Positions 7,432 to 45,416 of a DNA stretch of 64,000 nt are shown in pieces. Below the pieces are notes generated by a model that worked only from the letters and a program-made list of their open reading frames with translations, did no database searches and was not told where the DNA came from. The position numbers were made by a program, and so were the translations under genes. Origin of the DNA: Mesostigma viride (Eukaryota > Streptophyta > Mesostigmatophyceae > Mesostigmatales > Mesostigmataceae); NCBI GenBank assembly GCA_009746045.1, contig RPFO01000041.1, forward strand, positions 4,408,920-4,472,919. Reading direction: 5' to 3'. The number at the start of each line of letters is the position of its first letter. Within the stretch, counting starts at the first letter, position 1.

Positions 7432-7445
7432 GGCCGCACCCGCGC

Positions 7446-8717: not shown

Positions 8718-8804
8718 GGGGGAGGTGCGTAAAACAACGGAACCGGAAGCGCGGGGGGGAGAGCGAGATGCGGACGGGGGGGGTTTGGGGGGCGTGCCCC
8801 CCAA

Positions 8805-14412: not shown

Positions 14413-14497
14413 TTTTAATTGTTTTCTTTGCTTAAGACATTCAAGGTTTTTCCTTTTGCCTTCATTGCTTCAATTTAGATTCCTATCCTTTTCTTAA

Positions 14498-22224: not shown

Positions 22225-22287
22225 ATGGCAGAACCTACCCCTCCGATGGAGACCTTGCCGCCTACCCCTGATCCAGAGTTCTACTAT
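22225..22287 (+). pseudogene. Extra Ty3 ORF3, 5' fragment (split by the 23-kb transposon)
   Basis: ATG at 22225 begins MAEPTPPMETLPPT and reaches Tyr-Tyr at 22282-22287, where the giant transposon enters. The rest is at 45417-46112. Taking out 22288-45416 restores phase exactly. The product is not recognised. Confidence 0.6.
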
Positions 22288-22365
22288 GGGTGGTCCCACG
22301 CGGAATGGGGTCATTTTTGGCGCATTTTGCAAGAAAAAAACGCTAGTTTCAATCGTCCGATATCT
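22288..22365 (+). repeat. Left TIR of the 23-kb transposon
   Basis: It matches the complement of 45340-45412. The left copy has about 10 extra bases (GGCGCATTTT) after position 24. The shared core continues TTGCAAGAAAAAAACGCTA and TTTCAATCGTCCGA. Just inside, both ends carry related AATTT/CGG-rich subterminal words. Confidence 0.9.
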
Positions 22366-22654
22366 TTTTTTCGCGCGAATTTGGCGTCCGATCGCGTATT
22401 TTCGAGCTAATTTGGTGTCATAATGCTTAATTCATGTCAATTTGAGCGTACATTCCACATCGAGAGGCTTGAAAGTTAGTAATTCATGTAAATTTTACGT
22501 GGAGAGACTCGACATCATCCTAACCTTTGTATTAACCATAGGACGAGCATTGCCAGCGCATGTCCAAGTGCTAACTTTCCCTCACACTTTCGAGGGCCTC
22601 TTCCGTAATTTCGCTTCCGCGATCTGCTGTTCCGTTTTCGAGTTCCTCCTCTTC

Positions 22655-25600
22655 TTATCGATCGATCTCCTTTGCAGGCGCCCAGACTTCCACATCCTTC
22701 CAGCTCTTGCCATCCGTCAGCTTTACCACCTTCATCGCGTAGTCCAGCGGCATCCACCACAACTTGTTCTTCAACTTCCCTCCCTTCTCCCCCTCAGCGA
22801 AAAACTTAAATGCGACGTCCCTCCACTTGGTGTCGTATCCAGACACCTGCCCATAAAGCATGACGTCTTCTAGCTTGGCATACATTGGCGTAGCCGTATC
22901 CTTGTTCCCTGCTTGCATAATGGCTGCAGTCCACCCATCACACCAAAAGGCCTCTGGTGCTCCGAACCCCATTTCCCCGTCCATAAGTCTCATTTCCAAC
23001 GTGGGCTTGTCATCATCCTCATCGCCCGCCTGACTGTCTTCCGCCCCCTTAGGCTCCTCCCGTCCGGAAGTGTCAGCATGTACAGCCGCTGGTCCGAAGC
23101 CCACCGCCACATTAGCCAAGCGAAGTAACTGCTCCACATCCTCATTACCTGCGAGCAAACCGATCATGCCATCAACGCATGACTAAAATCGAGTTAGTAG
23201 AAATCGGACTGCCAACCGTAAAAAATCAAAACACTCTACATACCAGAATTCACTCGCAGATTTTTTCTTACCCTTTTTGGCCTTTTCCTTCGACCTCTGC
23301 TCGCAGGTAGACCCCGTCTGGGGGTGGGGGGCAGGCGCCGGGGCGGGTTTGGCGGGCTCGGCAACCTTGGCAGTCTTCGCGGTCTTGGGTAACTTCTTGG
23401 AAGCAACGCGCTCCTTTCCCCCGTCCTCCTCCTCTCCGCCGCCATCCTCCTCCTCCTTCTCCTCCTCATCGTCCGAATCTGAAAGCACAACTGCTTTTCG
23501 ACGCCGTTTCTGAGGCAGGGCAGGCTTGGGAGGCTTCCCACCTTGGCCGATTTCTTGGAAGCAACGTGCTCCGCAGCCTTCCCACCCTTGGCGGATTTCT
23601 TGGTAGCAACGTGCTGCTCCTCCTCCTCCTCCTCCTCCTCCTCCCCCTCCTCCTCCTCAGCATCGTCGTCCTCCTCCTCCTCCTCCTCCTCAGCATCGTC
23701 GTCCGAATCAGCCACTGCCACAACTGGCTTACGAAGCTGCTTCTTCGGTACCTGAGAAATGGCCAGAGTCGGCGGGGGAACCCGAAGCTGCTTCTTCGGT
23801 ACCTGAGAACTGGGCAGAGGCGCCGGGGTGGGCAGAGTCGCCGGGGGAACCCGAAGCTGCTTCTTCGGAACCTGAAAAACGGGCTGCGACGCGGCAGGCT
23901 TGGAAGGCCCACCTCCATCATCCTCAACAAGTGACACGACTGCCCGTCGAGTCACTTGAGAAGCGGGCTTCTTCGCCGCAGGCGGATCCGAATCACCTTC
24001 AGGCCCCGTATCTGTTCGGCCTGCTGCGTTCTGACCTCGACGGGGGTCTCTCCGCGGTTAGACCCTCCTGCCGGACCTCCATCCCCTCCATCCCCTCCCT
24101 CCAACAACTGTTGGTCATCCCTCTCCACCACGGCGGACAATCCCCCAGCTTCGTGGGAAGCTTTTCGCTTCTTCGCCCTTCCGAGCCTAGGCCCCCCATC
24201 ACCTTCCCCCTGTTCAAGCCGCTCCCACAATTCACTCCCTTTCCCGATCCTTTCCACTATCTCTTGAAACCCCTTAATCTCCGTCTCGGTACCAAACACG
24301 ATCACCATCGGTTCGAACCTGGAGAAAAAGTCGTGGGCGCAAGCCTTCAGCACATGATCGTACATCCCGCCCGGTTGGGGAATGTCCGAAGCTTTCGGGC
24401 AAGGACCGAACGCCCACCACCTGGACTGAAAGTTACTCCACTTATCACCCCAAATGTTCGCCAAGTTCAGCAGGCTCAGGCACGGAAGGGACCTGCCCAA
24501 GGGAAAGGGGCGGGCTGAAGCTGAGGCAACCTCGCCTGCCACCTGCTTGACGAGCGACTTGTCATCATCATCACCGTCTAGTAACTGACAGCAAAACCAG
24601 ACCCGGCGACGGCCCCAGTCCACACTCTGCCACTCATACTTCACGTCCCACTCCTCCTCCTCCTTCTTCGCCTCCGTCTCCTTCCCCTTCCCCTTCCCCT
24701 TCGATCCCTTCTCCAGCCCCTTCACCGGCCCCTTCATCGCCGCCTCCTTCACCCCCCTTCGAGTAATCCAAGTTTTGGAGCGTACTTCCTGAACGCTTCC
24801 GGAGCAAAAAGTGCCAAACCCACCGTCTTGTCCTCGCTCTCTTTTAGCAGAATCTCCTGAAAGTCGATCTTGCCATTACTGATATCCTTTCTCGGAATCC
24901 TCAGATGTGCGGCGTGTTTTTTGGCTTTAAGAAGGTAGGCGATGTTCCTCGTTATGATGACGGCCACATCCCAAAATTCCCGGTATCTGGCCACAATCTC
25001 CTTCCTGCCGACCGGCCGAGCGAGAGGATGGAGATTGAAGACGAGTTCGAAAATATGAGACGCCACAAACTCCTTGCCATTTGCGTCCTTGCATCGCGCT
25101 TCCAGCGTCACATCCTCCTTGAATCTGGCGCAAATGGTCAGCCGCAGGCACTCCAGCACATCCTTGGCGATCTCCACCAACTTGGTGAGCTTTTCCGGTC
25201 CAACCTGGCAGCTCATGATGCAATCGATCACGGCGTCCATCATAGGAAGGCTGGCCAAGTTCCTGAAAGAAGTCCAAGAGACCTTCTGGCCTTTCTTCTC
25301 CCCCTCTGCATTGGCGAATTTGCACCTTTGCATCATCACCTCCTCAGGCGCGGGTTTCGTTGAGGCAGGATCATCAGTCTGCTCCTGTGTCAGACGGAGA
25401 AACGTGTTGGCCAGCGTGCGACTGTAAGCGGAATGCACTGAAGCAATGCTGTGGGCCGGCTTTTTCTTTCCTTCTGCTTCCTCCTCGTGTACATCCACCG
25501 CTGCCGGCTCCACATTCCCTTCCCTTCCCCCCGCTTGCCGCATAGCCGGGAGGATGTACGTGAGCAGATTGGTGTAGTGGCCATCCGCAATATAGTGGCC

Positions 25601-28600
25601 CTTCCCACGCGTGACTTTGCCGTATAGATATAGCTTGTTGTAGTTCCACACGTCAAGCAACGCCTGGCCCAGCGTACGATCCGCCACGGCTAAGTCCTCC
25701 GAATTCGCCCCCTTGGCGATGTCGAACAGCTTCTCCAGCTTGCCGGTCAGCACCGCCTGCGACATCAATTAACATCGAGCGAGCAACGACAAAACTCAGT
25801 CATAAAAGGCGAGGGGTATAGCTGCGGATAGACCCTAACAAAATTCGAAAAAGAAACGGCCGACAATACGCAACGAAAATTCCAACAAAAAAAAGGAGAG
25901 GGTCTAGCTGCAGCGAGACCCTCGCAAAAAACTTGAAGCGCACACAAAAAACAACCACGAAAATTCCGAGGGTCTACCCGCAGCTAGACCCTGCCAAAAT
26001 AGATAGCTTACATCTTCTTTTGCCTTAGGTAGATTTCGCAGCTCACTCCACGACGGGAGCAGGTCGCCACCCTTGAGAAGAATGACGTTCGTACCCATGT
26101 AACCACCACGGAATTTCCGCAACAGGTCCTGGAAGGCGTGCTCCGCCTCCTTAGGAGTATTTGCGAAATTGGACTCCGCCCCACCCTCGCACATCATTGC
26201 CCGAACCTCTCCCCACCCGCCATCCGGCCCCCTGAGAAACGACTTTAACCCCTTAAAGTAGTGGTTCCCATCCACCACCGCGTACCGGAGAACCAGATAC
26301 GGTACCGGTCCCGTTCCTCAAAAAATTTCGGATCGTAGGACTTCATCGCAGTATTGCACAGCAGGTTGAAAACTTGCCGACTGCCCTCGATCTCCTGAGG
26401 CAAAACTGCTTCCACCTCGTCCACCCTGGCGTAGGTACGCCACTCAAGTCCTCTCGCGAGGAAAGAGGTGGTGGACTCCGTGTTAAGCCACACGTCGACT
26501 TCAGTATCCGAAAGGGGCCGGAAGTACCTGGACCCCACATCCTCCGCGTCAATCTTGGCGCCGTGGTGATGCTTCAGCCACTTGACGAAATCCGGCATGC
26601 ACAAGATTTGCTTGTCGAACAGGTCAGGTTGAGATTCGGCAAGCGCCTGGAAAGGGAACTGCCAGACCGGGACAACAACCTTGAAGTGCAAGGCGTTGTC
26701 CCGCGCATTGAGGAGAATGCGGCGTTCTCCTTAATGGTTTCAAGGTTTAAACGCCGCTGCCTCAAAGCCTCTGGCAAAATAAGCGCGTTGACCGTCTGGA
26801 TCCGCATACTGAAACATCCGGTCTGCTGAAAATCGGCCGGCCGAATCCAACGCGTTTCCCTGAGAGATTGGCCTTCCGGATGTTCTGGTCCCTGACCTCC
26901 TTGTTCGAGTCGACCTTTTTCGAAGGCTTCCAGCTTTCAATGATAGGGTCGGTGTCCGGGTTCCCACTGCTCGTGAGCACCCCCTCCTTAAAAAGCTTGT
27001 TGAGTGACCGGAGCAGCTCAAGAAAGGGGGAGAACTCGGGCCAGTTTGGCAGGTCATCGACGTCCGCCATCCGCCTACTCGAGCAGTACTTGAGCATATC
27101 CTTCACCAGCGCGAACACGGCGTCATGACCAGGTAACTTCTTCTCCACCGTGGCGTCTTCGTCCCCCCCGTCATCCTGAAGTAAAAAATCGAAAAGGACC
27201 GCAGGATTTGCTCAAGTCAGTAATCTTTAGGCCGACCACGACATCCTGTTCAGGGACGAACAAAGTTCTGTTGGAATAATACCTTACTGACACTAAACAC
27301 CAAGTCCCGCAGCCAGTCAGCGTCTACCCGCAGCGAGAGGTCTAAATTTTCACAACAATCGTACCTGTCCAGTTTTCTGCTGCTTCTTGGCCTCCTTAGC
27401 CTTCTCCTTCTCCGCCTTCTTCGCCTCCTTCTCCGCCGCCTTCGCCTCCGCGTTCTTCTTACTGTTGGCCTTTGCCACCGCATTCAGCGCCCTTTTTCCC
27501 TCAGCGGCCCGACGACGAAAATCAGCCTTCATGAATTTCTCGATCTTGTCAACCTTTGCCTCTGAGTACTCCTTAGGCTGCCACTTGAAATTCTTGGTGG
27601 CTTTCGACTTCACCAGATTTGCAAATTCATATGCCAATTCACTCTTAAGGGTAGCGTCACCCAACACCTCCGTATCGAAATCGGCATCGACTTCCGCCTC
27701 AAGTCGTGTCAGGTACTTGCGAAACTCGGACCCCGCAGGTCCCTCCGAATCGACGCCATCGGGCGGAGACTTAAGCATGATCAGGCCAACAGCAATAATA
27801 TGATCCTTCGCAACCTTCTTGCGGGAATCCAGCTTTTCCCTTTCATGCTCAGTCAATGGAGGCTTCGCCGCCTTCCCCCCCGCAGTACCCCCAGCGACAG
27901 CCCCCGCCTGCATGACAAAAAAAAACGAACAAGAAGGGACTTGACCTCAGTTCGATTGTTGCACCATCGTCTCTCTGCGGAGATACCCCTCAGCACGAAA
28001 AAAATCACACGAACTCGCGGCGGATGAACGTACCTGCACAGCCACTTCTCCCTCAGCGTCTCCCCCATCCTCATCTCCTCCAGCGTTTTCATCCCCCCCA
28101 TCCTCATCTCCTCCAGCGTTTTCTTCCTCTCCGGCAGCGCCTGCTGAGGCCAAACCCCCCGCCTGTCAACACCGAATACGACAGCTCATTGGAAATCAAA
28201 ATTAGTCGACATTTGTATATTTCGCATAATGCGCTCACTAAAACTTCAGGCGAAATGCAGACATCCGGATATCGTTTAATGCTTACCATTTCCATCTCGA
28301 GTCCAGACCAAATACCAGCACTGTCAACAGCCATCGCCGCAGCCGCCCCCTGAAAAAAGACAACAGATTGGTTGGGGGCACCGTTGAAATTAGCCGAACA
28401 TGTCAGTCTCAATAAAAGGGTGAGGGTCTACCTGCAGCTAGACCCCATGTAAGATGCTCGTGGAAACTCGACGGACAAGCACCCACCTTATCAACCAAGT
28501 CTGACAAATTAGGTAAATCCTCCGATACGTCCCCTGGCATGGAGCCCCCCTGCATGATATGACAGGACAAACCATGAAGGTTGGTCAGCATATAGAGCCC

Positions 28601-31070
28601 TATTCAGGGAATGGAAACAACCCAAATCGATAAACGATATCGGCAAGTTAACGTACCGAAACGTAGAACTTCCACCTCCTCAAAATCTTCCCCAAAGGCC
28701 ATATCGGCACTTGATGGGCTCTCTCCTTTTCCAGTTGCCGCCTCAATTCCGCCTCGAAGAACAACTCGAGGGACTGCCAATGGCCTCCCGCCTCTAAATC
28801 AGACCACTCCGTGTCTGTCTTGGTTCGGATACTCTGGAGACAATCAACCAACGAGATTTGATCCAACCATTCCTGGACGACTTCCCGGTATGGCTTATAT
28901 GTCTGAATAACATGGAAGTCCTCCCGGTGCCGGAAACTTTGGATCACCTGTCCAGCCCAATCCAAAAAGAAAGCGACCGCTTCCCGCGAAAGGCTGGCGT
29001 CCGGGCTGACAAGAAAGTCAGTCCGCCACTTAACAAAAGATTGCAGTAAGTGGTCTCTTGCCATGTCCAAATGCGCGATCACTTCATGTGCGCGCTCCTC
29101 CAATCCTCCTACGTCATTCATTCTTCCCGGCACAATTACGATAAGTCACTGTTGGACGTGTCAACAAATCCTTGCCTGACAATATCAAACACTTCATCTT
29201 CCGACAGTGAAGCCCTCGAATCCGCTCTCATATCTCCAGTCATGAGTTTAAAGAGCTGATGCAACGCAGTGGTTTTCAAGGTTTCCATATAGGAAGCCTC
29301 GATGCATGTGAAGCCAATGTGGACCTCGAACTTTTCAACCTCATCAAAGAGCGTCGACCATATTAAAGCACGACGGGGAAAGTAACGTCCGACATCCTCC
29401 TTCAGATTAAGGATGCACGACTGCGCGATCTTCAAAACCTCATACATGTCGTCACCAACGACCCTCTTCCCATGAATGGCTCGCTGTGTGGCTTCGAACA
29501 ATGCAAGCGGCCCAGCGGTCGTTCTTCCAAATTATGTCTGACTGGACGGTCGACGACACCGGACTTCTCTGCAAACGCTATCTCGGCCGAAAGAAAGCGG
29601 ATCAAGCCTCTCAAGCCCTTTTCGGCTTTACGACTCACCCCAGACTCAGACTCAGCCTGAGCCAGGTACTGTTTCAGAATGGCCAGCGTGTCGGGCTGCA
29701 GACAACAAGAGTAAAAAAAAGGCCACACATCGTCGTCGTCAACAACCTTAACTCCTAGGTCAACGTCTCTCCGCAGCTAGACCCTTACGATCAATGTATG
29801 ACATAAAATCCCACCCTTTCTACGATACACACACGCCGTTCAAGCCATCTGAAAAATGTACGTCTCACATTAATAAACATACCTGATAATCGACTGAAAA
29901 TCCTTCGTGAAGAAGGGGTGGGCTCCCGTTCTCGTCCTTCTCCCCCTCAACTGCCTTCGCAGCCTCCTCCTCCTTCCTCGCAGCCTCCTCCATCTTCCTC
30001 GCGGCCTCTTCCGCCTTCATCCTCTCCTGTCGCATCTGCAAAAAAAGAGCGGCCTCCTCCGCAAGAATTCCTTCGCTGCCGCCTCCGTCTTCTTCTTCGC
30101 CTCCTCCTTCTGCTTCGCCACCAGGATCCTGTGCTCCTTCTCCTGGGCAGCCTTTTTCTCCTTGTACTCCCTCTCCTCCTCCTCCCTCTCCGCCTTCTCC
30201 AGCCTCTCCTTCTCCTCCCTCTCCACCCTCTCCCTCTCCGCCTTCTCGATGGCCTCCCTCTCCGCCTTCTCCTTCTCCTTGTCCTTCTTGTCGAGAGCCG
30301 CGTATTCGTCAGCAAAGCTTGCGGCCATTGCTAACAAATCGGACAACCGCTTCTGACGCGACTCCCGAACCGGCGATTCCGGGTCTTCAGGCCTCCCGTT
30401 AGTCTGATCGCGCTCGTCCTCCTCAACAAGCTCACTGATAGACTTCCTCAGCTTCCTGAGCTCTTTGGTGCGGTCGTCTTCCTCTACCCACTCGGCCGCA
30501 GGCTTACGCTTAGAACTGGAATGCTTGGGGGACGGCGAGCGGGACGCAGAAGCGGGGGACTTGGGTGGCGGCGAGCGGGACTTGGGGGAAGGAGAGCGGG
30601 ACGGCGAGCGGGACGCAGTTGCGGGGTTCTTGGTTGACGGCGAGGGGGACTTGCGAGAAGGAGAGCGGGACGCGGTAGCGGGGGGAACTTTGGGCGGAGA
30701 GGGGGACTTGCGGTTCGGCGAACGGGTCGCAGTTGCGGGGGACTTGGGGGACTTGCGGGGCGGCGAGCGGGACGCAGTAGCTCCGGCCGACTTGGGGGGC
30801 GGCGATGGAGACTTACGGGGCGGAGAGCGGGACGGAGCGCGAGACGCAGCAGCGAGAGGGTTGGGGGGTATAATTCTGTCCAACTCGCTGGGGGGCAAGT
30901 TGGACTTGGAGGGCGAGGGGACTCGGTGGGGGGGACCTCGCAAGAGCATTTACGGGACCGAACTGCAACGGAGGAAACGCCTCCGTTGCCGTTCGGTCCG
31001 GCGAGGTGTTCGACGTCATCTTGGGTGAAACGGGAGTGGCCTTGACAGAATCGGAATAGGAGGACGACAT
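22655..31070 (-). CDS. Large unknown multi-exon gene of the 23-kb transposon
   Basis: Exons inferred on the minus strand, with GT and AG at each edge: 31070-29883, 29695-28657, 28549-28487, 28349-28287, 28162-28034, 27907-27365, 27175-26012, 25756-23244, 23148-22655 (stop). The four small middle exons are 63, 63, 129 and 543 bp, all multiples of three. The product would be about 2,400 residues. It has an Arg/Ser-Pro repeat region and a charged coiled coil (exon 1), acidic repeats (exon 5), a Lys/Ala-rich helix (end of exon 6), QVPKKQLR repeated three times with long acidic runs (exon 8), and non-repetitive globular segments in exons 2, 7, 8 and 9. Exon 7 includes YAVVDGNHYF, a faint ParB-like string. 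Several 1-nt frame changes occur, mostly at homopolymers. I do not recognise the family. Confidence 0.6.
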
Positions 31071-31139
31071 CTGCAGAACAATATCAAAAAAGCAAGTTTC
31101 ACAAATGTCATTCAGAATCTGAATCGCCGGCAGAAAAAC

Positions 31140-31615
31140 GATGGGGAGGGTCTCGCTGCAGCTAGACCCTTTCGTGGATTCTAAAAGGGACATTTAGTTT
31201 AATGCAAAACTTTGGCGTCTCGCTGCAGCGAGACCCTCACTTCAAGCAAAAACAAATCATTTTTAGGGTGAGCGAAAACAAGCAACCTCCCATCATGCAA
31301 ACATAAAAAAGTATACATTCCTTGGGGTCTCGCTGCAGCGAGACCCTAACGTCAAACAAAAACAAATAATTTTTAGGGTGAGCGAAGAAAGCCCCCTCCC
31401 ATCTTGCAAACATTAAAAGTCGACATTCGTAGGGGTCTCGCTGCAGCGAGACCCTAACACCGATACAAAAACAAATCATTTTAAGGGTGAGAAAAGAAAG
31501 ACCCCCCATCATGAAAACATGAAAAATTGACATTCCTTGGGGTCTCGCTGCAGCGAGACCCTTACGTCAATACAAAAACAAAATTCCGAGGGTCTACCCG
31601 CAGCGAGACCCTTAC
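31140..31615. repeat. About 108-bp tandem repeat, each unit with a CTGCAG palindrome
   Basis: Units recur with GGGGTCTCGCTGCAGCGAGA centres at about 31214, 31324, 31431 and 31539, with flanking related copies at 31147 and 31590. Between them are words such as AAAAACAAATCATTTTTAGGG and CTCCCATCATGCAAACAT. The apparent minus-strand frame is a by-product. Confidence 0.8.
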
Positions 31616-32727
31616 GACCACGTATAAATACATGTGGGGGGGGAAGCTACGTATAAATACATGTGGGGGGGGATGCTATGTATAAATGCATGTGGGGGGG
31701 TGCTGGCATTAATAATTAAATGTGGGGGGTGATGGCATGAATAAATAAATGTGGGGGGTGCTGCCATGAATAAAAGAATGTGGGGGTGTGATGGCATGAA
31801 TAAATGAATGTTGGGGGGTGCTGGCATTAATAATTAAATGTGGGGGGGTGATGGCATGAATAAATAAATGTGGGGGGGTGCTGCCATGAATAAAAGAATG
31901 TGGGGGTGTGATGGCATGAATAAATGAATGTTGGGGGGTGCTGGCATTAATAATTAAATGTGGGGGGTGATGGCATGAATAAATAAATGTGGGGGGTGCT
32001 GCCATGAATAAAAGAATGTGGGGGGTGATGGCATGAATAAATAAATGTGGGGGGTGCTGCATGAATAAAAGAATGTGGGGGGGTGCTGCCATGAATAAAA
32101 GAATGTGGGGGTGTGATGGCATGAATAAATGAATGTTGGGGGGTGCTGGCATTAATAATTAAATGTGGGGGGTGATGGCATGAATAAATAAATGTGGGGG
32201 GGTGCTGCCATGAATAAAAGAATGTGGGGGTGTGATGGCATGAATAAATGAATGTTGGGGGGTGCTGGCATTAATAATTAAATGTGGGGGGGTGATGGCA
32301 TGAATAAATAAATGTGGGGGGGTGCTGCCATGAATAAAAGAATGTGGGGGGTGATGGCATGAATAAATAAATGTGGGGGGTGCTGCCATGAATAAAAGAA
32401 TGTGGGGGGTGATGGCATGAATAAATAAATGTGGGGGGTGCTGCCATGAATAAAAGAATGTGGGGGTGTGATGGCATGAATAAATGAATGTGGGGGGTGC
32501 TGGCATTAATAATTAAATGTGGGGGGTGATGGCATGAATAAATAAATGTGGGGGGTGCTGCATGAATAAAAGAATGTGGGGGGTGATGGCATGAATAAAT
32601 AAATGTGGGGGGTGCTGCCATGAATAAAAGAATGTGGGGGTGTGATGGCATGAATAAATGAATGTTGGGGGGTGCTGGCATTAATAATTAAATGTGGGGG
32701 GTGATGGCATGAATAAATAAATGATAC
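31616..32727 (+). repeat. G-rich satellite array A, about 29-31 bp units
   Basis: Units follow ATGTGGGGGGTG, CTGGCATGAATAAAT with variants, and a higher-order pattern of about four units (about 118 bp). Runs of 5-8 G fall on the plus strand. It shares the core ATGTGGGGGGGTGCTG with array B in opposite orientation. Open frames in it are not genes. Confidence 0.92.
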
Positions 32728-34972
32728 GTAGCATCACCCCCCCACATGTATTGATACGTACGTAGCATCACCCCCCACATGTATTGATACGTAGCATCAC
32801 CCCCCCACATGTATTAATACGTAGCATCCCCCCCCACATGTATTGATACGTAGCAGCACCCCCCCACATGTATTGATACGTAGCAGCACCCCCCCACATG
32901 TATTGATACGTAGCAGCACCCCCCCACATGTATTGATACGTAGCAGCACCCCCCCACATGTATTGATACGTAGCAGCACCCCCCCACATGTATTGATACG
33001 TAGCAGCACCCCCCCACATGTATTGATACGTAGCAGCACCCCCCCACATGTATTGATACGTAGCAGCACCCCCCCACATGTATTGATACGTAGCAGCACC
33101 CCCCCACATGTATTGATACGTAGCAGCACCCCCCCACATGTATTGATACGTAGCAGCACCCCCCCACATGTATTGATACGTAGCAGCACCCCCCCACATG
33201 TATTGATACGTAGCAGCACCCCCCCACATGTATTGATACGTAGCACCCCCCCCACATGTATTGATACGTAGCAGCACCCCCCCACATGTATTGATACGTA
33301 GCAGCACCCCCCACATGTATTGATACGTAGCAGCACCCCCCCACATGTATTGATACGTAGCAGCACCCCCCCACATGTATTGATACGTAGCAGCACCCCC
33401 CCACATGTATTGATACGTAGCAGCACCCCCCCACATGTATTGATACGTAGCAGCACCCCCCCACATGTATTGATACGTAGCAGCACCCCCCCACATGTAT
33501 TGATACGTAGCAGCACCCCCCCACATGTATTGATACGTAGCAGCACCCCCCCACATGTATTGATACGTAGCAGCACCCCCCCACATGTATTGATACGTAG
33601 CAGCACCCCCCCACATGTATTGATACGTAGCAGCACCCCCCCACATGTATTGATACGTAGCAGCACCCCCCCACATGTATTGATACGTAGCAGCACCCCC
33701 CCACATGTATTGATACGTAGCACCCCCCCCACATGTATTGATACGTAGCAGCACCCCCCACATGTATTGATACGTAGCAGCACCCCCCACATGTATTGAT
33801 ACGTAGCAGCACCCCCCCACATGTATTGATACGTAGCAGCACCCCCCACATGTATTGATACGTAGCATCCCCCCCCACATGTATTGATACGTAGCAGCAC
33901 CCCCCCACATGTATTGATACGTAGCAGCACCCCCCCACATGTATTGATACGTAGCAGCACCCCCCCACATGTATTGATACGTAGCAGCACCCCCCACATG
34001 TATTGATACGTAGCAGCACCCCCCCACATGTATTGATACGTAGCAGCACCCCCCCACATGTATTGATACGTAGCAGCACCCCCCCACATGTATTGATACG
34101 TAGCAGCACCCCCCCACATGTATTGATACGTAGCAGCACCCCCCCACATGTATTGATACGTAGCAGCACCCCCCACATGTATTGATACGTAGCAGCACCC
34201 CCCCACATGTATTGATACGTAGCAGCACCCCCCCACATGTATTGATACGTAGCAGCACCCCCCCACATGTATTGATACGTAGCACCCCCCCACATGTATT
34301 GATACGTAGCAGCACCCCCCCACATGTATTGATACGTAGCAGCACCCCCCCACATGTATTGATACGTAGCAGCACCCCCCCACATGTATTGATACGTAGC
34401 AGCACCCCCCACATGTATTGATACGTAGCACCCCCCCCACATGTATTGATACGTAGCAGCACCCCCCCACATGTATTGATACGTAGCAGCACCCCCCCAC
34501 ATGTATTGATACGTAGCAGCACCCCCCCACATGTATTGATACGTAGCAGCACCCCCCCACATGTATTGATACGTAGCAGCACCCCCCCACATGTATTGAT
34601 ACGTAGCAGCACCCCCCCACATGTATTGATACGTAGCAGCACCCCCCCACATGTATTGATACGTAGCAGCACCCCCCCACATGTATTGATACGTAGCAGC
34701 ACCCCCCCACATGTATTGATACGTAGCAGCACCCCCCCACATGTATTGATACGTAGCAGCACCCCCCCACATGTATTGATACGTAGCAGCACCCCCCCAC
34801 ATGTATTGATACGTAGCAGCACCCCCCCACATGTATTGATACGTAGCAGCACCCCCCCACATGTATTGATACGTAGCAGCACCCCCCCACATGTATTGAT
34901 ACGTAGCAGCACCCCCCCACATGTATTGATACGTAGCAGCACCCCCCCACATGTATTGATACGTAGCAGCAC
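32728..34972 (-). repeat. C-rich satellite array B, 30-bp unit, about 75 copies
   Basis: The unit is ACCCCCCCACATGTATTGAT plus ACGTAGCAGC, nearly invariant apart from C-run length and occasional loss of CAG. Because 30 is a multiple of three, all frames look open for hundreds of codons; these are artefacts. The orientation switches relative to array A at about 32728. Confidence 0.95.
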
Positions 34973-34977
34973 AATTT

Positions 34978-35696: not shown

Positions 35697-36291
35697 GTTG
35701 CAGCTGGTTACTATTAGCTATGGGGTCTCTCTGCGGCTGCGCTTCTTTTTCGATGGGCGATGGGACGGTCGCAATTCGCAAACCGGACGCGGCGTCACAG
35801 GGCTGAACGGTATTGAAAAAATTGGAAATGTGCATCCTCGTTCCTCCCCACGGAACTGAAAACTGGAAGCGCGGCGCTGGTGCAAAAGCTCGATCCCATC
35901 TTTTGGAACCAAGCTAGCGGATTGGACGACATCCAATATGCCGTCACCCGTGCTTGTGGCCGCAGGTATAAAAAGAGACGACCTCCAGCCCATTTACCTG
36001 GGAACATTCGGATGTTTGGCTGACATCGTTACCATGCAGAAATGTACAATGAGGTTCTGGGTTCGATTCCTGGTGTGGTCATGGAAATAAATTTTTTTCT
36101 GCACATCTACTGAAATCAGTCATAGCACCAAACGGTCACGCTGCAGCGAGACGCTATAGCCCTGGAGGCCGCTGATAAACCTGACATCCGGTATGTCTTA
36201 CTATCATAGATTGCCGAACTATATAATAATAATAGTCTATACCACTTTTTCTTGTAAATCATTTACTAAATAATGATTCTATATACTTTAA
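35697..36291. other. Non-coding spacer with a tRNA-like T-arm
   Basis: No gene seen. Degenerate CTGCAG-type palindromes lie near 35721 and 36132-36154. At 36055-36080 the sequence CTGGGTTCGATTCCTGG can fold as a T-arm with a B box. No matching acceptor or D-arm is present, so this is a SINE-like remnant and not a tRNA gene. Confidence 0.45.
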
Positions 36292-37980
36292 CCCCTAAAT
36301 GGTCTGAGATCCTGCCGATAAATCGGCTGGATCTTCACAATTTTGCAAACCAGATGCCATCCAACCTACCCATATCCAATGGCTGTCCTTGGGGGCCAAG
36401 CATGTCCATGAGTTGCCCTTCGGGTTGGTATATCACAACCTCACATATATGCAGGGTAGGCCATATATAACTGCCGTCAAAGTCAGGGGGGTCAAGACGC
36501 GCGTTTTCATTTTTGGTAGAATGTGCATTTTGAATTATGTTATAAGACCTAGGCACCTACCACTTCAGGGATGATAAAAAATTAGTTCCTGAAAAGTTTG
36601 AGCCATTGGGGTCATCATTTGGGTGGGTATACCAGCAGTTACACTCAGTACAGCCCATAGGGGTACCGTTGGTAAAAAGCAACCAAGGGGGTAGGGGTGG
36701 GCATACTACCTACTAATATGGCCACCAACCATGCCAAACAATACATTTCCCTTCCACAATGATGGGGAAACATAACTGCATCATCACACTGCCCTTACAT
36801 GGCACCTATGTGCAGGTGCCACCTTGTCCATGCACGTAGGTAACGTGGTACGGATACCCTACGCAAGGCATGCATTCTAGGAGGCAGCCACCAACAAACT
36901 AGTGATGTTGAGCCTATTTCAGCCTGCCCTAGCAAGGATAAACTAGGCCTAAGTTGATATAGCTTGCCAGGTGATGGCCAGCACACCTGGTGGCACATGC
37001 TGTCAATGGGAAGCTTTTACTCACCAGTTACGTGCTTGATGATGCCACAGAGACCAGTCAACTGCCTCACACTCATGCAATATGTGTATGGGAAATGTAT
37101 AACAAACATATATGGAGGTATTTAAACCCATACAGCCTCTAAAACTTATCACCATCACCCTGTGGCAGGTCAACTGACTGAGGGAAGCATCTAAGAAGGG
37201 TGTTTTAGAAAGGGGCCAGGCCAGGGTCAAGAAAGAGCATGAATAATGCAAAAAGAATGTGCTACACAAGCTAGAACGTATATATAAACGTCAAACATCG
37301 ATAGGACAACGATGCTTAAGCTTTGCCAGGCATGGATGGCGTTACCTTGGCCCAGGCGGTGGCCGCAAAATGGCGCATTTCGGCACACCAAAGTTGTGCA
37401 GCATGGTCGCTGGATTCGGCGATTTCTGGCCACCCTTGCACGTTTACGACTACTATGTATCATAAAAAGTACAAAGAAACCAATGTATCCTTTAAAATAC
37501 GCCGGAAAGGTATTGCTGTCAACGTTTCTATCGTCCGGCCTGATCGCAGTTATTTCCAGCAAGAACGCTGCCGACACCTATCAAATGGCATTCCCGCGAA
37601 CCAAAAATTGGCCTGTATGATCTTTAGGACGTATAAAATCAATATCCTAAGTTTGGACAGAAAATTCGAACGCAAACGTCAATGCCATGCGTGGGCGCAA
37701 GCCGCCATGGCCAGGTCGTCGTTTTCCGGAATGCACGTTGTACGTGAAAAAGTACCCTGACCCCTTGTACTTTGACCGGCCAGAACACCTCTATAGCTTT
37801 GTCAAAAGTATGCAAACCCTAGTACCATGCTGTGAAGAATTTTATAAACTTTCGATCTTCTCAGCTAAACTTTTCCTAATTCTCAATAGATTTCGCGGCA
37901 TCTGGTCCCCCGAGAAGGGGCCGATGCATCGGCTGGAACTCGATTTTTGGCGGAAAATCGGCAGCAAGACCATTTAGGGG
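36292..37980. mobile_element. Second piggyBac-like non-autonomous element, 1,689 bp
   Basis: TTAA at 36288-36291 and 37981-37984 flank inverted termini CCCCTAAATGGTCT and AGACCATTTAGGGG. The similarity continues imperfectly (TGCCGAT...CGGC). The internal frames show no transposase motif. It differs in sequence from the 14498-16221 element but uses the same TTAA target, and is nested in the 23-kb transposon. Confidence 0.8.
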
Positions 37981-38086
37981 TTAACATACCATATTATTAA
38001 AGTATGTGGAATTTAACCATGCTATTCACAATATATTATAAAATCTTTTGCAAAATATACTGTAATTAGTATATATATTTTCTGAT

Positions 38087-38629
38087 GTGGTGCTGGACTT
38101 TGAGGGGGGTGGACGGCATCTGCTTATTGACGTTTCGGTGGCGCGGCCCTTGGCTCTTAGCCACGTGGCTGGGGCCTCCCTCACGGCAGGTTACACGGCG
38201 GACCGGGCGGAGCGGGCCAAGCTCCTGGCCTATGGCGACGTCGGGCACCATCGTGTGGTGCCCTTTGTCCTGGAGGAGTTTGGGGCCATGGGGCCCCTGA
38301 CCTCCGCCTTCTTCAAGGAGTGTTGCCGGCTCCGGGAGGACCGGCTGGACCTGGAGGGCCAGCGGGCCCCATGGTCGGCGCGGACCTGGACGTCATATTG
38401 GCGTCAGCGCTTGTCGGTGGCGCTGACTCGGGCCATGGCTGACATCATGCTCCGCCGTACGCGGGCTGATTTTGCGGTGCAGCAGGGCTATTAGGTTCCT
38501 CCCGTTAGGCGTTTCCATTGGTCTTATCGTAGTATAGAGCTTTGACATGGCTCTGTATATAGGTTTATAGCTGGGCGTTTGCTTTGGTTTGAGTGATTTC
38601 ACTCTGTTGTAAGTAATTATATTTTTTAA
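38087..38629 (+). mobile_element. 5'-truncated RLE-type LINE with 16-bp target duplication
   Basis: The frame (38087-38494) covers only the end of the endonuclease domain and C-terminus (LLIDVSVARP, PFVLEEFGAMGP, WSARTWTSYWRQRLS) and is about 70% similar by eye to the full LINE at 3511. It has a roughly 135-bp 3' tail without poly(A), ending GTAAGTAATTATATTTTTTAA. ATATATATTTTCTGAT flanks it on both sides (38071-38086 and 38630-38645). 5' truncation plus a variable-length duplication is the mark of target-primed reverse transcription. Confidence 0.92.
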
Positions 38630-38645
38630 ATATATATTTTCTGAT

Positions 38646-39049
38646 AAACAATTTTATCAATGCTACTGTGTTATTTTTGTTATTCTCGCCATGCAGGTAT
38701 CTGAGTGTTCTGGGAGAACTAATAAGAGAATGAGCCGCGAAGGTGAGGAAAACCTGAAATCTTTTCGTCCTTATTGGGGTCTCTCTGCAGCTAGACCATT
38801 TATTACCACAAGCAATAGCTTAAATTCAAGGGTCTCGCTGCAGCTAGACCCTCTTTATGGTTGCTATAAAATTAATGAATCAGAAGTCTGTGATTTAACA
38901 ATCGCACGCCGCAATGAAGGGTCTAGCTGCAGCGAGACCCCAATCTTGGTCGGGGTATGCTAAGTTCACCACATCAGGTAATCTTTTCGTCTAACGGAAA
39001 AAGCCCCTCTAAGGGTCTAGCTGCAGCTAGACCCCAATCGTGGTAAAAA
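38646..39049. other. Upstream region of the transposase-like gene
   Basis: It contains four CTGCAG palindromes in 260 bp (38777, 38829, 38919, 39012), the last ending about 15 bp before the ATG at 39050. No ORF of note. It could hold the promoter, but I see no clear TATA element. Confidence 0.5.
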
Positions 39050-42000
39050 ATGATACACTTTCGAACTTTGTCTGTAATTGTCGCTTTTCCCAACGATACT
39101 CGATTTGCATGGATTTCGTTGTGCCGGTCGTCATGGCATGCAGCACGCGAACGGGTGGGAGTTTTCGCCCTTGCGTCCGGTCGTCCAGGATTCAGTGCAA
39201 TTAAGTTGAACACCGGGACGAAGCAGTCAACTGGCGCAAAAAGGGTTTTCGGAGATGAGAACCAGAATCCAGCGCAGCCTGAAGCCAAGGAAGTCAAGCG
39301 GCCGGGAGAATACTCGAAATCAAAGAGGGTTATTGGGGAATATTTCGCTGACCAGGCGTTTGAAGCGGCTCAGGCGATGACAAAACCCGAGGGGTGGGGG
39401 CCGGCTTTCGACCAGATGATTGCTGGCTTTAACTCTAGGGCCGCTGAACTAGGTCACGGGAAGTATCATGAGGAGGCGAAAAAGCTTTACAATCAGGAGC
39501 GGATGGCAGAACTGAACAGGTTCTGGGTGGCTCGGATTAACGGCTTTTTTGATGGTCTGACCAAAAGCGACGCAGACAGAGACGTCAGGATGGTGCTGAT
39601 GTCCACGCTTTACTGTGGTGACGACTTGGAGAAGGAGTTTTCGGCCGCGGAGTTGGAGAACCTGACGGGGATGGACGCCAAGAAGATTCGCGGAATTCGC
39701 GCGATACGAAGGCAGCAGAAGTTGGACTACCTCAGACACGCGCAGGCTCGCAAGGGGCGCCCTTTGCCGCAATTCGTGATTGACGCGATAGTGGACGCGT
39801 GGATGCACGATGATGAGTCGCGCGCCTCCTCCCAGATGAAGGATGTCAAGCGCACTTACAGCAGGGAGGGTCATGGCAATCGCGGGGTGCTCGTCGCCGT
39901 TGAGGGAGCGCGCTATTACATGACCTCGAAGGAGGACATGTACAATCACTTTCTCGAAAAGCATGCGTACTGGAACAAAAGGAGTGACAGTTAGGTTAAT
40001 ATTGTGCGGAAACCTTTTTGCCACTTGGGCTTCTCAGGTTCCGCACAATATTACCGGCGATAACCACTCGCCGGACACTCAAGTTCACGACGTCGTGAAC
40101 TTGAGTGTCCGGCGAGTGGTTATCGCCGGTAATATTGTGCGGAACCTGAGAAGCCCAAGTGGCAAAAAGGTTTCCGCACAATATTAACCTAACTAAAACC
40201 TAGCCTCTTGGGGCGAGGACGAATCACTAGGCTCGGAACACCCGTATGCATGAATATGATCGAATATAAGCATCTCGTTGGTGCAAATATGATTAGAGCC
40301 GGGTGCCAAATCGGAACGAATTATTCCCCAAATAATCCGCTTCCGAGTGGATTCGAACCTGCGCCCCGCAAGGATCCAGGTCTTAGTTAGGTTAATATTG
40401 TGCGGAAACCTTTTTGCCACTTGGGCTTCTCAGGTTCCGCACAATATTACCGGCGATAACCACTCGCCGGACACTCAAGTTCACGACGTCGTGAACTTGA
40501 GTGTCCGGCGAGTGGTTATCGCCGGTAATATTGTGCGGAACCTGAGAAGCCCAAGTGGCAAAAAGGTTTCCGCACAATATTAACCTTTCTAAGACCTGGA
40601 TCCTTGCGGGGCGCAGGTTCGAATCCACTCGGAAGCGGATTATTTGGGGAATAATTCGTTCCGATTTGGCACCCGGCTCTAATCATATTTGCACCAACGA
40701 GATGCTTATATTCGATCATATTCATGCATACGGGTGTTCCGAGCCTAGTGATTCGTCCTCGCCCCAAGAGGCTAGGTTTTAGTTAGGTTAATATTGTGCG
40801 GAAACCTTTTTGCCACTTGGGCTTCTCAGGTTCCGCACAATATTACCGGCGATAACCACTCGCCGGACACTCAAGTTCACGACGTCGTGAACTTGAGTGT
40901 CCGGCGAGTGGTTATCGCCGGTAATATTGTGCGGAACCTGAGAAGCCCAAGTGGCAAAAAGGTTTCCGCACAATATTAACCTAACTGTGACCAGTATGAT
41001 AAGGACGTGGGCATTCACGTGGGCTACACGACCTTCTGCAAATACGCGCCCGATTGCATCAAGGGCAAGTGGAAGGAGAGGAACCTGTGCGCGTGTGAGA
41101 AGCACGTCACCATGCAGTCGGCCATGGGGGCGTGGACCAAGCACTGCAATGCGAACCACGGCAAGAACTGCAAGTGTGGCGCGGAGTGTGCGGGATGCTC
41201 CAAGTACAGACAGCCGGACGGTACTTGCGGAATGTGGAAAGCCATTCACTCGACGGACTGGATCAAGCACTTTCACTGCCCGGTGTCCGCCGAGACTGAC
41301 GGCAGGGATAACGGGCTGCGTGAAGGGGGCGGAATGGGCGGGGGGATGGAAGAGGGGGAGGGGGAAGATGAATGGCGGGGACGGGACCTGGAAGACCTCG
41401 ACATTTCTGAGAGGCTGGTGGAGGACGAAGATGGGGTGCCGAGGACGGAGAGGGTTCACCGCATACTGAAGATGGCGTGTGTGGAGGGGTTCTGTCCTGA
41501 GGAATCATGCGGCATCCATAATAACTGGGTGCAGTGTGATCGGGACAAGAATTCCACGGAGATTCTGAATTGGTTCAAGTTCGAGATGGTGGAGCAGACT
41601 GTGACCCGAGGGGTGAGGGTGAGTAGGTTTCGAATTTATTTCTCCGTTAAAATGTTGTTGACTTTTTGTTTTTGTGACCTATAGCTGCAGCGAGACCCTT
41701 TGTGAGTTGCAGTTAAATGATCGAAATGCGATTTTATTGCAAATCGAAACTGTCTGCGGACCTTTGCGAAACAGGGCGAGACCGATGGCAGGGCGGCGAA
41801 GAAGGTGAAGCGGCCCGAGCAAGTCCAAATGAGGTCCACCCCAGCTGAGCTGCGGGACGAGATTCTTAAGAGGTGGGACAAGTTCACCGTGCACTGCTTT
41901 ACGGCCTGGTCGCAGGCGGATACAATCAAGGATCGGGAGAAGAATCTGAGAGAGGGGGACGTGCTCGTGCACGGCGACTGGGCCGAGAACTACGAGAACA

Positions 42001-43705
42001 GCAGCTACGTCCAACTGCAGTCGCAGTACTTCCACAAGCGCAGCCACATCCTGATGCCCATGATCGTGCGTTATCGGCTCAACGGCGAGCTGGAAAAGCG
42101 CGTCTTCTTTTTCCTGGGGGATTCCAGTATCAAGCGGGGCGAGCGCGCACTCGTATACGCTCTTCGCAAGATTCTGGAAACCCTGCGGGTAGAAGTAGGG
42201 GTACAGGTGCGAAACCTGTACATGTGCTCGGACAACTGCGCGGTGCAGTTTAAGTCCAGGTACGTGATTAACCAGATTAACGGTCTGCTCATGGGGGATC
42301 CCGACCTGCAGGCCTTTGAGTTCCACTACATGGGGGAGCAGCATGGGAAGGGGGAGGTGGATGGTCAAGGAGCGAAGTGCAAGTGCGTCTTGAGGGAAAT
42401 GCAGAGGATTCCCGAAAACCAGCACATACTTGAGACCCACCAGCTAGTCGCCTACTTGAACCAGAACTGGCAGGGCGGCAAGACATCAAGCAGGGAGTCG
42501 GCCCGCGCGCGGGCCGAGAACGTCACTCGCCACTTCTTCCTTTTACCCCCGGTACGGAATTGTGTGTTATTTCAGGTTTTAAGACGTCAACTGCCGCTGT
42601 TCTATAAAAATTCAAACCCAATAAAGGTATCTCTGCAGAGAGACCCTATATACTGTCCATGGGTTGCTTTTCTTTTAGGTATGAAATTTCGCTTGTTCTT
42701 TCGGTATGAAGGGGTCTCTCTGCAGCTATACCCTGTGTCGAATTTCGATCACTTGATATCTTGTCGTACGTTGTTATTATGATTCGAATGGGGTCTCTCT
42801 GCAGCTATACCCTGTGTCGAATTTTGATCACTTGATATCTTGTCGTACGTTTTATTTGATTCGAAGGGGTCTCTCTGCAGCTATACCCTGTTTTATTGAT
42901 TTTTGGTCAATTTTGCTAACTTGAACGGTATTCTTTTTGCCCTAACTATTTGATGACAGGACGTCGAGTCCGGCCGACGCGCGGAGGTTGAGGAGGTGCC
43001 TGGCATCAAGAAGGCGCATTGGTGGCGACTGGACAAGTCCGACCCTGGCCTTTTGATGATTAGGCGCTATTCCTGCTACTGTCCGCCCTGTTTGGCTGGG
43101 CGGTTTGAGGGATGTCTAAGCGAGTGGTCGTTTATCATCGAGTTCAATGATGCAGGAAGCTCGATGAAAACTGTCCGTTTGCTGCCACCGAGCCAGCCCA
43201 ACCCTCCGGTTCGCATGGTGACGCGGGGGGAGCAGCTGAAGGACAAGCGGGAGGCGATGGGCCGGCAGATGAGACTCCACGACTATGTGGCAGTTCCATC
43301 GGACAAGGACACGGATCACGATCCCATCCACCCGTTCTGGTTGGCTGAGGTTGTAAGCGAAGCCGGGCCGATCGTGTTAGACGAGAACTTCGAGAGGTGG
43401 GTCGAGGGCCGGAACGGACGGAGAAGGAGCTGTTCCTCGCCGGGAACGGCATTCTTCCCGTTCGGATTTGGAAGCGGGATAAGCATGACCCCCTGCATTT
43501 CACGCTCAACGTTGAGGATTGGCCACCGTCACGCCAGCCCGAGCTTGTGAATTGCTATCTCTGCGTCGCTCCGGCTCTCCGGCTAGAAGCACGCGTCCGC
43601 AGCGACGGAATGTGTGCCGACATCAGGATGAGCAAGGAGCTCGACAAGTGGCTTACTACGCTGGTGATCAAGGATGAAGCCCCGGAGGGGCCGGCACCGA
43701 CTTAA
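39050..43705 (+). CDS. Transposase-like gene of the 23-kb transposon (multi-exon, interrupted)
   Basis: Exon 1 runs 39050-39988 and continues at 40992 to about 41618, split by the giant palindrome; the frame is in phase when that is removed. Exon 2 is about 41777-42552 and exon 3 about 42961-43705, with GT/AG edges. The second part of exon 1 is Cys-rich (CKYAPDC, CACEKH, CKCGAECAGC), probably zinc-binding. Exon 2 has GDWAENY (Asp 41976), SDNCAVQFKSRY (Asp 42231) and HGKGEVDGQG (42342-42371), an RNase H-fold-like spacing of acidic residues expected of a DDE/D transposase. Exon 3 has another Cys cluster (CYCPPCLAGRFEGC) and a 1-nt shift near 43410. Introns contain CTGCAG palindromes. Catalytic residues are inferred. 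Confidence 0.65.
39989..40986. mobile_element. Giant hierarchical palindrome element, second type, 998 bp
   Basis: The centre lies between 40487 and 40488. P copies of 206 bp (39989-40194, 40385-40590, 40781-40986) alternate with inverted 190-bp U copies (40195-40384, 40591-40780). Only a 2-3 base mismatch near 40588 was seen. Each half of P contains an internal hairpin (TAATATTGTGCGGA...TCCGCACAATATTA). Termini are AGTT and AACT, as in the first element. The target duplication GTGAC is at 39984-39988 and 40987-40991. It interrupts the transposase-like gene in frame between Asp and Gln codons. The overlapping small frames are by-products. Confidence 0.92.
40591..40780 (+). repeat. U module of the second palindrome, tRNA-like head
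   Basis: It begins AAGACCTGG and has GGTTCGAATCC at 40616-40626, a B box in a T-arm-like context, followed by GGATTATTTGGGG. The start resembles the distal part of a class II (Leu/Ser-like) tRNA. The inverted copy at 40195-40384 has its B box at 40349-40359. It ends AGGTTTTAG, compared with AGGTTTTAAG in the first element. Confidence 0.5.
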
Positions 43706-43990
43706 ATTAACAAGAAATTGGGGTCTCGCTGCGGGTAGACGACGCCCTAGTTTCGGCTCGTATTATATCTTTAGAGTGGGGCTTCAGTAGGGTGTAAAAA
43801 GGTGGCCGCATATATTGTATATATTTTTCGAGATCTTTCTGTGGTCAAGTTTAAGGGTAGTTGATAATTTTTTGCGGCCTTCAATTAACAGTTATTTTTT
43901 ACTGCAACATAATTTTATGCTGTATATTTAAATAATGATAAGGATTTCGATATTTTTTTGCACAATCTATTCGACATTTGTTTCTGCATG

Positions 43991-44208
43991 TCGAGAATTT
44001 ATTGCTCCACCCCCACAAAAAAAATCGTTCCGGAACTGTTCGAAGCGAATAGCACTGACAGGTTTCGAACCCGGGTCCACATTATGTTCGGAGTGAGGTA
44101 GGCCAGCCATCATGTTCCGCACTCAAATCTGGCTCGGGTCCGATCCCTTCATGCTCTTCGCTTCGAACAGCTCCGGAACAAGTTTTTTGGGGTTGGAGCA
44201 ATAAATAC
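43991..44208. mobile_element. Small foldback element with tRNA-like interior, about 215 bp
   Basis: Arms of about 55 bp are inverted copies: TTTATTGCTCCA, then GTTCCGGA..TGTTCGAAGCGAA. The interior on the minus strand holds TGGCTGGCCTACC and, about 40 bp later, GGGTTCGAAACC, which resemble polymerase III A and B boxes. On the plus strand GGTCCGATCCC is also B-box-like. No target duplication was identified. Confidence 0.6.
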
Positions 44209-44361
44209 TTATTTGCCGGGCGCAGTTGTCATTCCGCCTAGTACAATTGCGTCACTAGTACAATTTTTGTCTGGGTACGGTACGAACCAATAACGCAATA
44301 TTTAGTATCTAATCGCCGCTGCTCTTGCTGAATTTTATCCGGAAGCTGAAACAGGTGTCCG

Positions 44362-44964
44362 GTGAAGCGAATACTAGTGACTGGTGGTCGTGCCCTTCCA
44401 TTACTCCTTATCGACAAATTTTGGGTTCTACCTGCAGTTATAACCCTTGCGCGTCTGGCTGTCGGGGTCACCAATTTCCTGTCGATTGCAATCAGCCAAC
44501 CTTGCCGAAATTTAACACTGTCACAAATGGAGCAGAGCAATATTTTCGGTTCTCAGCATACCTATGTGATGGTCGACAAAAATGAGCACGCTGCAAACAT
44601 CAGAATTGATGTAGAGTTGCTCGGACCTTCTGCACAGTGGGGTGCAGGTGTCATTGCGTTCGGCAATGGCATGATCGATCTGGTGCCACCCGATTCAGAT
44701 TTGAACCCTGCTTACCAATGCGTGCCTGACAATCAGGCGAGAGTGGTGGTGGAGAGCACGGAAATTCCGGGCTCTCCCAATGTATCAATGATGCGCCTGA
44801 GGGCCGAGGCCCAGCAGGAGTTCCTGGCTGCTGCGGAGAACGGCGGGGCCAAGTGGAACACCAAAATGTATACAGGCGAGCCTCCCAACTACAGGGGAGA
44901 CCAGTTCCAGGGAGTGTACTCCTTCGGCGATTTTGACATCGACGGATGGGGCACCTTTTTCTAG
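44362..44964 (+). CDS. Small unknown gene near the right end of the 23-kb transposon
   Basis: The frame is open for 200 codons. A likely start is ATG at about 44527 (MEQSNIFGSQHTYV), giving about 146 residues, because upstream sequence contains a CTGCAG palindrome (44423-44446) typical of introns and spacers here. The product is acidic, with QWGAGVIAFGNGMIDL and a C-terminus FGDFDIDGWGTFF. It has no signal peptide or membrane segment if begun at 44527. I do not recognise it. It lies on the same strand as the transposase-like gene. Confidence 0.5.
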   Translation: MKRILVTGGRALPLLLIDKFWVLPAVITLARLAVGVTNFLSIAISQPCRNLTLSQMEQSNIFGSQHTYVMVDKNEHAANIRIDVELLGPSAQWGAGVIAFGNGMIDLVPPDSDLNPAYQCVPDNQARVVVESTEIPGSPNVSMMRLRAEAQQEFLAAAENGGAKWNTKMYTGEPPNYRGDQFQGVYSFGDFDIDGWGTFF

Positions 44965-45339
44965 GCGCAATGCCTAAGTTGTCAAATACTCCGACAATGT
45001 CAAAATTGCGAATGATAAAATTACGGACATGTGCACATATATGTACTGATTCAATAAAAAATTTCGGCAATTTTGTTCCCGGCATTGATAATCAAAAGCT
45101 GCTAGCAAGCCAAGGACTTCAAAAGTGGCAATAGATCGATGTAGGTCGTCGATAAACTTGTCTAGTCGTCATATTTCGGTCGCAAAATTCGTGCGTGGCC
45201 TGCAGGCATCGGACAAAGTGCACGCAACAGCAGGAGTCGGTTGAGTTCGAAGCACGGCAGACACAAAATTTCGGCGCAAAGTCCGTCGGGCGAAAAATTC
45301 GCTCGGCTGCCAAATTTTCGGCAAGAATTTCGGCGCAAT
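44965..45339. other. Right subterminal region of the 23-kb transposon
   Basis: No gene. From about 45245 it is rich in repeated words (AATTTCGGC, GGCGCAA, CGGGCGAAAAATTCGC) that resemble the left subterminal region. These may be transposase-binding repeats. Confidence 0.5.
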
Positions 45340-45412
45340 GTCCGGTTTTCGGACGATTGAAATTAGCGTTTTTTTCTTGCAAAAATCTACCCCATTCCGC
45401 GTGGGACCACCC
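45340..45412 (-). repeat. Right TIR of the 23-kb transposon
   Basis: Inverted partner of 22288-22365; followed directly by CTAT (45413-45416). Confidence 0.9.
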
Positions 45413-45416
45413 CTAT

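Follow-up and report, generated by a model that had tools for sequence, protein, structure and literature searches.

The 64,000-bp window analysed here, positions 4408920-4472919 of contig C1579 of Mesostigma viride, carries a giant DNA transposon of 23,125 bp that sits within a Ty3-like element. The transposon very probably belongs to a family of giant DDE transposons that has been active recently in this alga. What can be stated safely is that the family is a recent and abundant one of giant terminal inverted repeat (TIR) transposons, whose derivatives are presumably mobilised in trans. Repeated inverted ends, 4-bp target-site duplications, an empty site and a predicted RNase H-like core place the element among the TIR DNA transposons. 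Genome searches covered the 439.9-Mb assembly of 2,243 contigs, and feature coordinates are collected in Table 1.

Element ends and insertion site

Both ends of the element consist of a single 24-mer in inverted orientation. Imperfect similarity between them extends over about 71 bp with an alignment score of 85, compared to a best score of 52 among 400 random window pairs. An initial annotation of the window had described inverted ends with 24 identical outer bp, a CTAT duplicated on both sides and a clean empty site, and all three were recovered. In a search with the left flank, the best 40 of 887 candidates were scored, the window itself among them. Eight of the other 39 were fetched, and in all eight host relatives the sequence continued across the insertion point with no element present. 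The closest of these, about 38 kb away in opposite orientation, aligned over 446 bp at 99.8% identity and with 0 gaps. The remaining ones were 91.1-98.2% identical with 2-4 gap positions, some with small changes near the insertion point. Since the host relatives run uninterrupted without the element, its ends are not part of the Ty3-like host, in agreement with the annotation. A nested element of ~1.7 kb, bounded by CCCCTAAATGG ends and lying at TTAA, presumably piggyBac-like, was inserted independently in two giant copies, namely that of the window and that of C557 (element positions 5362-7066).

Genome copies, target-site duplications and size classes

The terminal 24-mer occurred exactly 363 times in the genome (187 + 176), while its reversed control occurred 0 times. 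Pairs were formed from every plus end followed by a minus end within about 60 kb, which gave 27 pairs from 100 listed places in addition to the window. Among the first eight elements (the window and seven pairs), five were flanked by a 4-bp duplication and those in C100, C382 and C310 by none; for the duplication in C446, 7 bp is an alternative reading. The other 20 end pairs showed 4 bp in 19 cases and 5 bp in one. As the pair in C323 is the reverse view of the site at C224:2489380, 27 of the 28 large insertions are distinct. Including the miniature inverted-repeat transposable elements (MITEs, 9 of 10 with 4 bp), 33 of 38 insertions examined had a 4-bp duplication, one had 5 bp and four had none. 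The duplicated sequences were variable, with a weak bias towards G at the second position (18 of 32).

Genome counts do not equal insertion counts because some sites appear twice on duplicate contigs in the assembly. One insertion was present both at C224:2489380-2505487 and in C323 with lengths of 16.1 and 19.5 kb, and one insertion of the sister family described below was present in C526 and at C113:3140314, again with differing element length. Such doubled insertions of different length reflect duplicate or allelic contigs, or a change in satellite length. In C557, a left end of the giant family was found at 401953 and another at 402553, about 600 bp apart and pointing away from each other.

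By length, the elements fall into three classes whose ends are identical or almost so. Full-size elements measured 21.0-23.5 kb in the seven copies read entire (window, C85, C100, C310, C382, C446 and C557), and the six others were about 94-99.8% identical to the window copy when satellites and nested insertions were excluded. End pairs known from their ends alone spanned about 10.3 to 58 kb. The 10.3-kb element in C280, read entire, had the family ends and only a fragment of the opposite-strand partner described below, and no transposase was found in it by tblastn. A second 10.3-kb copy, in C36, did not differ from it in the 1.5 kb compared at each end. MITEs made up 10 of 30 listed loci and measured 585-588 bp, except for one of 1,340 bp; their second end carried one mismatch. 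By blastn they had 131 + 65 terminal bp in common with the giants, while their interiors were otherwise unrelated and contained no genes and no G-rich minisatellite.

Transposase

The annotation had placed genes on two strands, which was confirmed, with the transposase on the plus strand. Its multi-exon structure was upheld, but the first supposed intron was not: as the 998-bp gap at 39989-40986 is a private insertion rather than an intron, the transposase of the window copy is broken there. The insertion is a composite of palindromes of about 200 bp with AGGTTAATATTGTGCGG ends, its 504-bp arms are 99% complementary, and no Rfam match was obtained for it. A stretch at its centre, GGATTCGAACC, appeared tRNA-like by eye. 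The last exon of the window copy is frameshifted as well: it encodes 196 aa compared to 248 in all six others and differs from C85 by one gap.

The predicted transposase proteins used for comparison (P0001-P0004) were retrieved as jgi/Mesvir1 entries. The start of the large exon is uncertain, with similarity to P0001 from near 39143 and a weak match to a 5' exon at 38697-38798; its 3' end was set by P0001, with an alternative donor two codons earlier. The core exon was open in the window and five of the six other full-size copies and broken in C446. In five of these six, the large, core and last exons were all open.

The core exon carries the motifs HGDWAENYE, CSDNC and HGKGEVDGQGA. The modelled core showed the order b1-b2-b3-a1-b4-a2-b5, with D68, D153, E194 and D196 invariant in all four aligned sequences (three predicted proteins and the window exon). 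Its fold matched RNase HI and PIWI, and retroviral integrases at lower Z. This modest model suggests an RNase H-like DDE/D core in which three acidic positions are conserved and correctly ordered.

No significant Pfam match was obtained for P0001-P0004 or the core exon, and P0004, P0003 and the window exon matched 0 families up to E 10. P0002 matched DUF7869 over the core-motif region at E 0.12, with 12.3 bits compared to a cut-off of 26, and no match to this family was found in P0001, P0003, P0004 or the window exon; membership in DUF7869 was rejected accordingly. A protein search with a tool requiring shared exact words returned only Mesostigma proteins and one partial protein from outside Mesostigma, with 32% identity.

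Opposite-strand partner and small gene

A partner of about 2,400 residues had been annotated on the minus strand. Its exons are real and conserved, and they may belong to one gene or to two. Exon exE was open over 198 aa in C85, C382, C446 and C557 and over 175 aa in the window, and its marker was not found in C100 and C310. The open frame of exC measured 859 aa in C85, 844 in C557, 339 in the window, C382 and C446, 323 in C310 and 125 in C100, so partner frames are broken in several full-size copies. For exA, the best 150 of 302 candidate places in the genome were scored; stop-free full-length matches ranged from 100 to 81%, and lower ones mostly contained stops. A Pfam scan of the minus-strand exons returned low complexity and chance matches only. 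Compared to the sister family, the ratio of nonsynonymous to synonymous substitutions (dN/dS) was 0.14-0.30 for the partner in four comparisons (exB twice). The small gene shared 74 of 110 residues with its sister counterpart, with a dN of 0.24, a dS of 0.91 and a dN/dS of about 0.26. All of these ratios are rough owing to high dS.

Palindromes and minisatellites

The inverted satellites and element-specific palindromes reported in the annotation were both present. Palindromes of the form GGGTCTnGCTGCAGCnAGACCC, with up to 3 changes, occurred 18 times in the window, all of them within the element, and 0 times in 20 shuffles. Seven other large elements contained 18-21 each. Their places in the giants are the gaps between exons and the regions upstream of genes, on either strand. 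Each of the ten MITEs carried two palindromes (up to 4 changes), derived from a common ancestor in which one palindrome was possibly duplicated.

Adjoining G-rich and C-rich arrays in head-to-head arrangement and of variable length were found in the window and five of the six other full-size copies. In C310 both satellite units have one polarity, with the first (element positions 12093-14498) opposite to that of the other full-size copies, as if inverted. C280 contained two separated inverted arrays of a different 30-bp unit, and MITEs only short and weak tandem repeats. Because the G-rich minisatellite is present in the large elements read and absent from MITEs, it would be dispensable for MITE mobilisation.

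A sister giant family

A search with P0002, a predicted transposase 63% identical to that of the window family, was scored for the best 45 of 1,622 candidates. It led to an element in C1424 with 21.8 kb between GGCCGGGCCCACTTCGAATGTTCC ends. These ends occurred 130 times exactly in the genome (reversed controls 0) and differ in sequence from those of the window family, with some resemblance by eye. A 4-bp duplication flanked 10 of 11 chosen pairs and was absent from C1:2457890; as C526 and C113 represent a single site, 9 of 10 distinct sites carry it.

The interior of this family is known from C1424, minus its leftmost 2.9 kb. Partner exons occurred there in the same order and on the same strand as in the window element with 34-62% identity, together with the small gene and a G-rich minisatellite in which a ~30-bp unit is repeated 85 times. 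The latter formed one array, and no inverted satellite pair was seen in C1424. Palindromes were found at 6 of 16 CTGCAG sites within 14 kb. The two families thus have a common plan of partner exons, small gene, G-rich minisatellite, palindromes and 4-bp duplications, whereas they differ in their ends, their satellite unit and their palindromes, which are fewer and different in the sister family.

Classification and alternative explanations

Target-site duplications of 4 bp are made by Sola elements and by other superfamilies, while those of KDZ elements measure 8 bp and those of CACTA elements 2-3 bp. KDZ was rejected on the 4-bp rather than 8-bp duplication; Pfam contains a KDZ domain, and none was found in the scans of P0001-P0004 and the core exon up to E 10. 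EnSpm/CACTA was rejected on the GGGTGG ends and the 4-bp duplication. In the CACTA element Spm, TnpA and TnpD provide a transposase and a second element-encoded protein, accompanied by repeated subterminal motifs. The window element, likened here by description, also has a second protein and internal repeated motifs, but the Spm motifs are subterminal and are not CTGCAG palindromes.

The transposase could belong to a broad DDE family known from animal genomes, with or without a Repbase name, which is a serious candidate at somewhat less than even chances. This family has the motifs D-x-A-E-N-Y, SD-x-C/G-x-x-Q-F/Y-K and HGKGxxDGxGG. Such motifs were found in three predicted proteins and the window exon, with P0004 closest to the pattern (HGKGEVDGAGGTVK), and the faint DUF7869 match of P0002 overlies the same region. 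However, this match is far under its cut-off and is confined to P0002, and the exact-word search yielded a single relative from elsewhere.

The annotation had suggested Sola or an undescribed superfamily. Membership in the Sola superfamily (Sola1, 2 or 3), as a green-algal counterpart of Ectocarpus Sola1-1, is doubtful. Both the window and sister families have the 4-bp duplications of Sola, but these are common to other superfamilies. Sola1-1_Ec32 of Ectocarpus is likewise an algal DNA transposon, of about 21.5 kb with an opposite-strand accessory gene of 1,104 residues, as described in the available part of PMC12477816. That gene encodes ParB and a DNA methyltransferase (PMC12477816), whereas neither domain was detected in Pfam scans of the minus-strand pieces of the window element. 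Palindromes and minisatellites are unmentioned for Sola1-1 in the available part of this source.

The partner genes, palindromes and minisatellite might also be passengers with no role in mobility, the ends being sufficient. The 10.3-kb elements and MITEs move in the direction of this explanation by what they lack, and so does the broken partner of several copies. Against it stand the low dN/dS of partner exons and small gene between families, the common plan in two families with diverged transposases, and the palindromes kept even in MITEs, and it is rather unlikely. An integrated virus or Maverick-type element would agree with 21-23.5 kb and several genes but is highly improbable, as Pfam scans of the coding pieces on either side of 31-38.6 kb showed no viral gene, viral-contig scans no relative, and both the 4-bp duplications and the existence of MITE and 10.3-kb derivatives are features of a transposon.

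Tentatively, the family may represent an unnamed DDE superfamily, in which the giants would combine a co-evolved transposase, partner and small protein with palindromic recognition or control sites retained even in MITEs and a central minisatellite with a chromatin or regulatory role.

Proposed mobilisation

In a recently active giant DDE family, the transposase, which has about 1,030 residues and a Cys/His-rich region preceding the core, would bind the element ends and excise the element. It would then join the element to a target with a 4-bp stagger, the fill-in of which would give the duplication. Intact copies would act in trans on broken copies, on transposase-less 10.3-kb elements and on MITEs. 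The CTGCAG-centred palindromes might be bound by an element-encoded protein with a regulatory or assisting role in mobility, for which the candidates are the partner and the N-terminal portion of the transposase. The G-rich minisatellite may have a function in regulating genes or in the structure of chromatin.

Feature coordinates and neighbouring elements

Table 1. Features of the giant transposon in the window
Feature	Position	Strand	Basis or comparison
Whole transposon	22288..45412	none	inverted 24-bp ends, CTAT duplication, empty host copies 8/8 fetched
Target-site duplication CTAT, left	22284..22287	none	flanks left end
Left terminal inverted repeat GGGTGGTCCCACGCGGAATGGGGT	22288..22311	+	363 exact in genome, reversed controls 0
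Partner last exon region exE	22658..23182	-	59% relative in 10.3-kb element
Partner large exon exC, split over two frames in window	23239..25768	-	57% relative, 136 positions, sister family
Ten CTGCAG-centred 22-bp palindromes	25814..31611	none	between and upstream of minus-strand exons
Partner exon exB (part)	26248..26730	-	62% relative in sister family, dN/dS 0.14-0.16
Partner exon exA	27353..27946	-	47% in sister family
Exon exU, partner or second minus-strand gene	28651..29145	-	34% relative, sister family, same place and strand
Low-complexity S/P/R- and E/K-rich 5' coding stretch, frames uncertain	30017..31083	-	open reading frames
Minisatellite array 1, ~29-bp G-rich unit, 37 copies	31624..32723	none	tandem repeats
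Minisatellite array 2, 30-bp unit, core of array 1 inverted (C-rich), 75 copies	32722..34972	none	tandem repeats
Single palindrome, 3 mismatches	36133	none	palindrome scan
Nested ~1.7-kb element, CCCCTAAATGG ends at TTAA	36286..37984	none	related insertion elsewhere in C557
Four palindromes	38777..39034	none	directly upstream of large transposase exon
Transposase large coding exon, Cys/His-rich part	39050..41618	+	P0001 match; reading frame continuous in 6/6 other full-size copies
Private 998-bp insertion, palindromic repeats, GTGAC duplication	39989..40986	none	missing from 6/6 other full-size copies
Transposase exon with RNase H-like core (predicted)	41775..42551	+	four-sequence alignment and model
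Three palindromes, 2 mismatches each	42712..42888	none	last transposase intron
Transposase last exon	42960..43704	+	frameshifted in window copy
Small third gene, 204-aa open frame	44350..44964	+	open in 7/7 full-size copies
Right terminal inverted repeat	45389..45412	-	left 24-mer, inverted
Target-site duplication CTAT, right	45413..45416	none	flanks right end

Two further features were observed in the window outside the transposon. A long open reading frame on the minus strand at 3511-7521 contained a RING finger and a reverse transcriptase (RVT_1, E 1.4e-12) and resembles a long interspersed nuclear element. At 8804-9691, a tandem array of a 231-bp unit was present in 3.8 copies with 100% matches.

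Relation to known giant transposons and significance

The initial annotation had called an element of this size unusual. It is indeed a large TIR element with several genes, but its rarity is weakened by the giant KDZ, EnSpm and Sola-1 elements of Ectocarpus, whose maximum lengths are 15.2 to 30.3 kb in the available part of PMC12477816. The window element is thus of a kind known from Ectocarpus, where giant transposons with an accessory gene on the opposite strand are reported and where nested insertions and broken transposases, like those of the window copy, are frequent among the giants (PMC12477816, same part). The giant KDZ and EnSpm (CACTA) elements also resemble the window family in size, accessory genes and broken transposases that are presumed to be mobilised in trans (PMC12477816), whereas the window family is set apart from them by its lack of a significant Pfam transposase match. 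The lineage itself, the plan repeated in two families and the palindrome common to three size classes look new. In the available parts of the Mesostigma genome papers, PMC6947507 among them, classes of long terminal repeat and TIR elements are named and a giant DNA transposon is not. The element was not met in the literature search, from which absence from print is not claimed.

Giant cut-and-paste elements with a complete set of derivatives are rarely found together in one place. In this single genome, members with open exons, broken members, 10.3-kb elements and MITEs of about 586 bp occur along with a second family, by which the roles of the partner, small gene, palindromes and minisatellite become testable. 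As Mesostigma is an early-branching streptophyte, these elements are also relevant to the history of mobile DNA in the line of descent leading to land plants.

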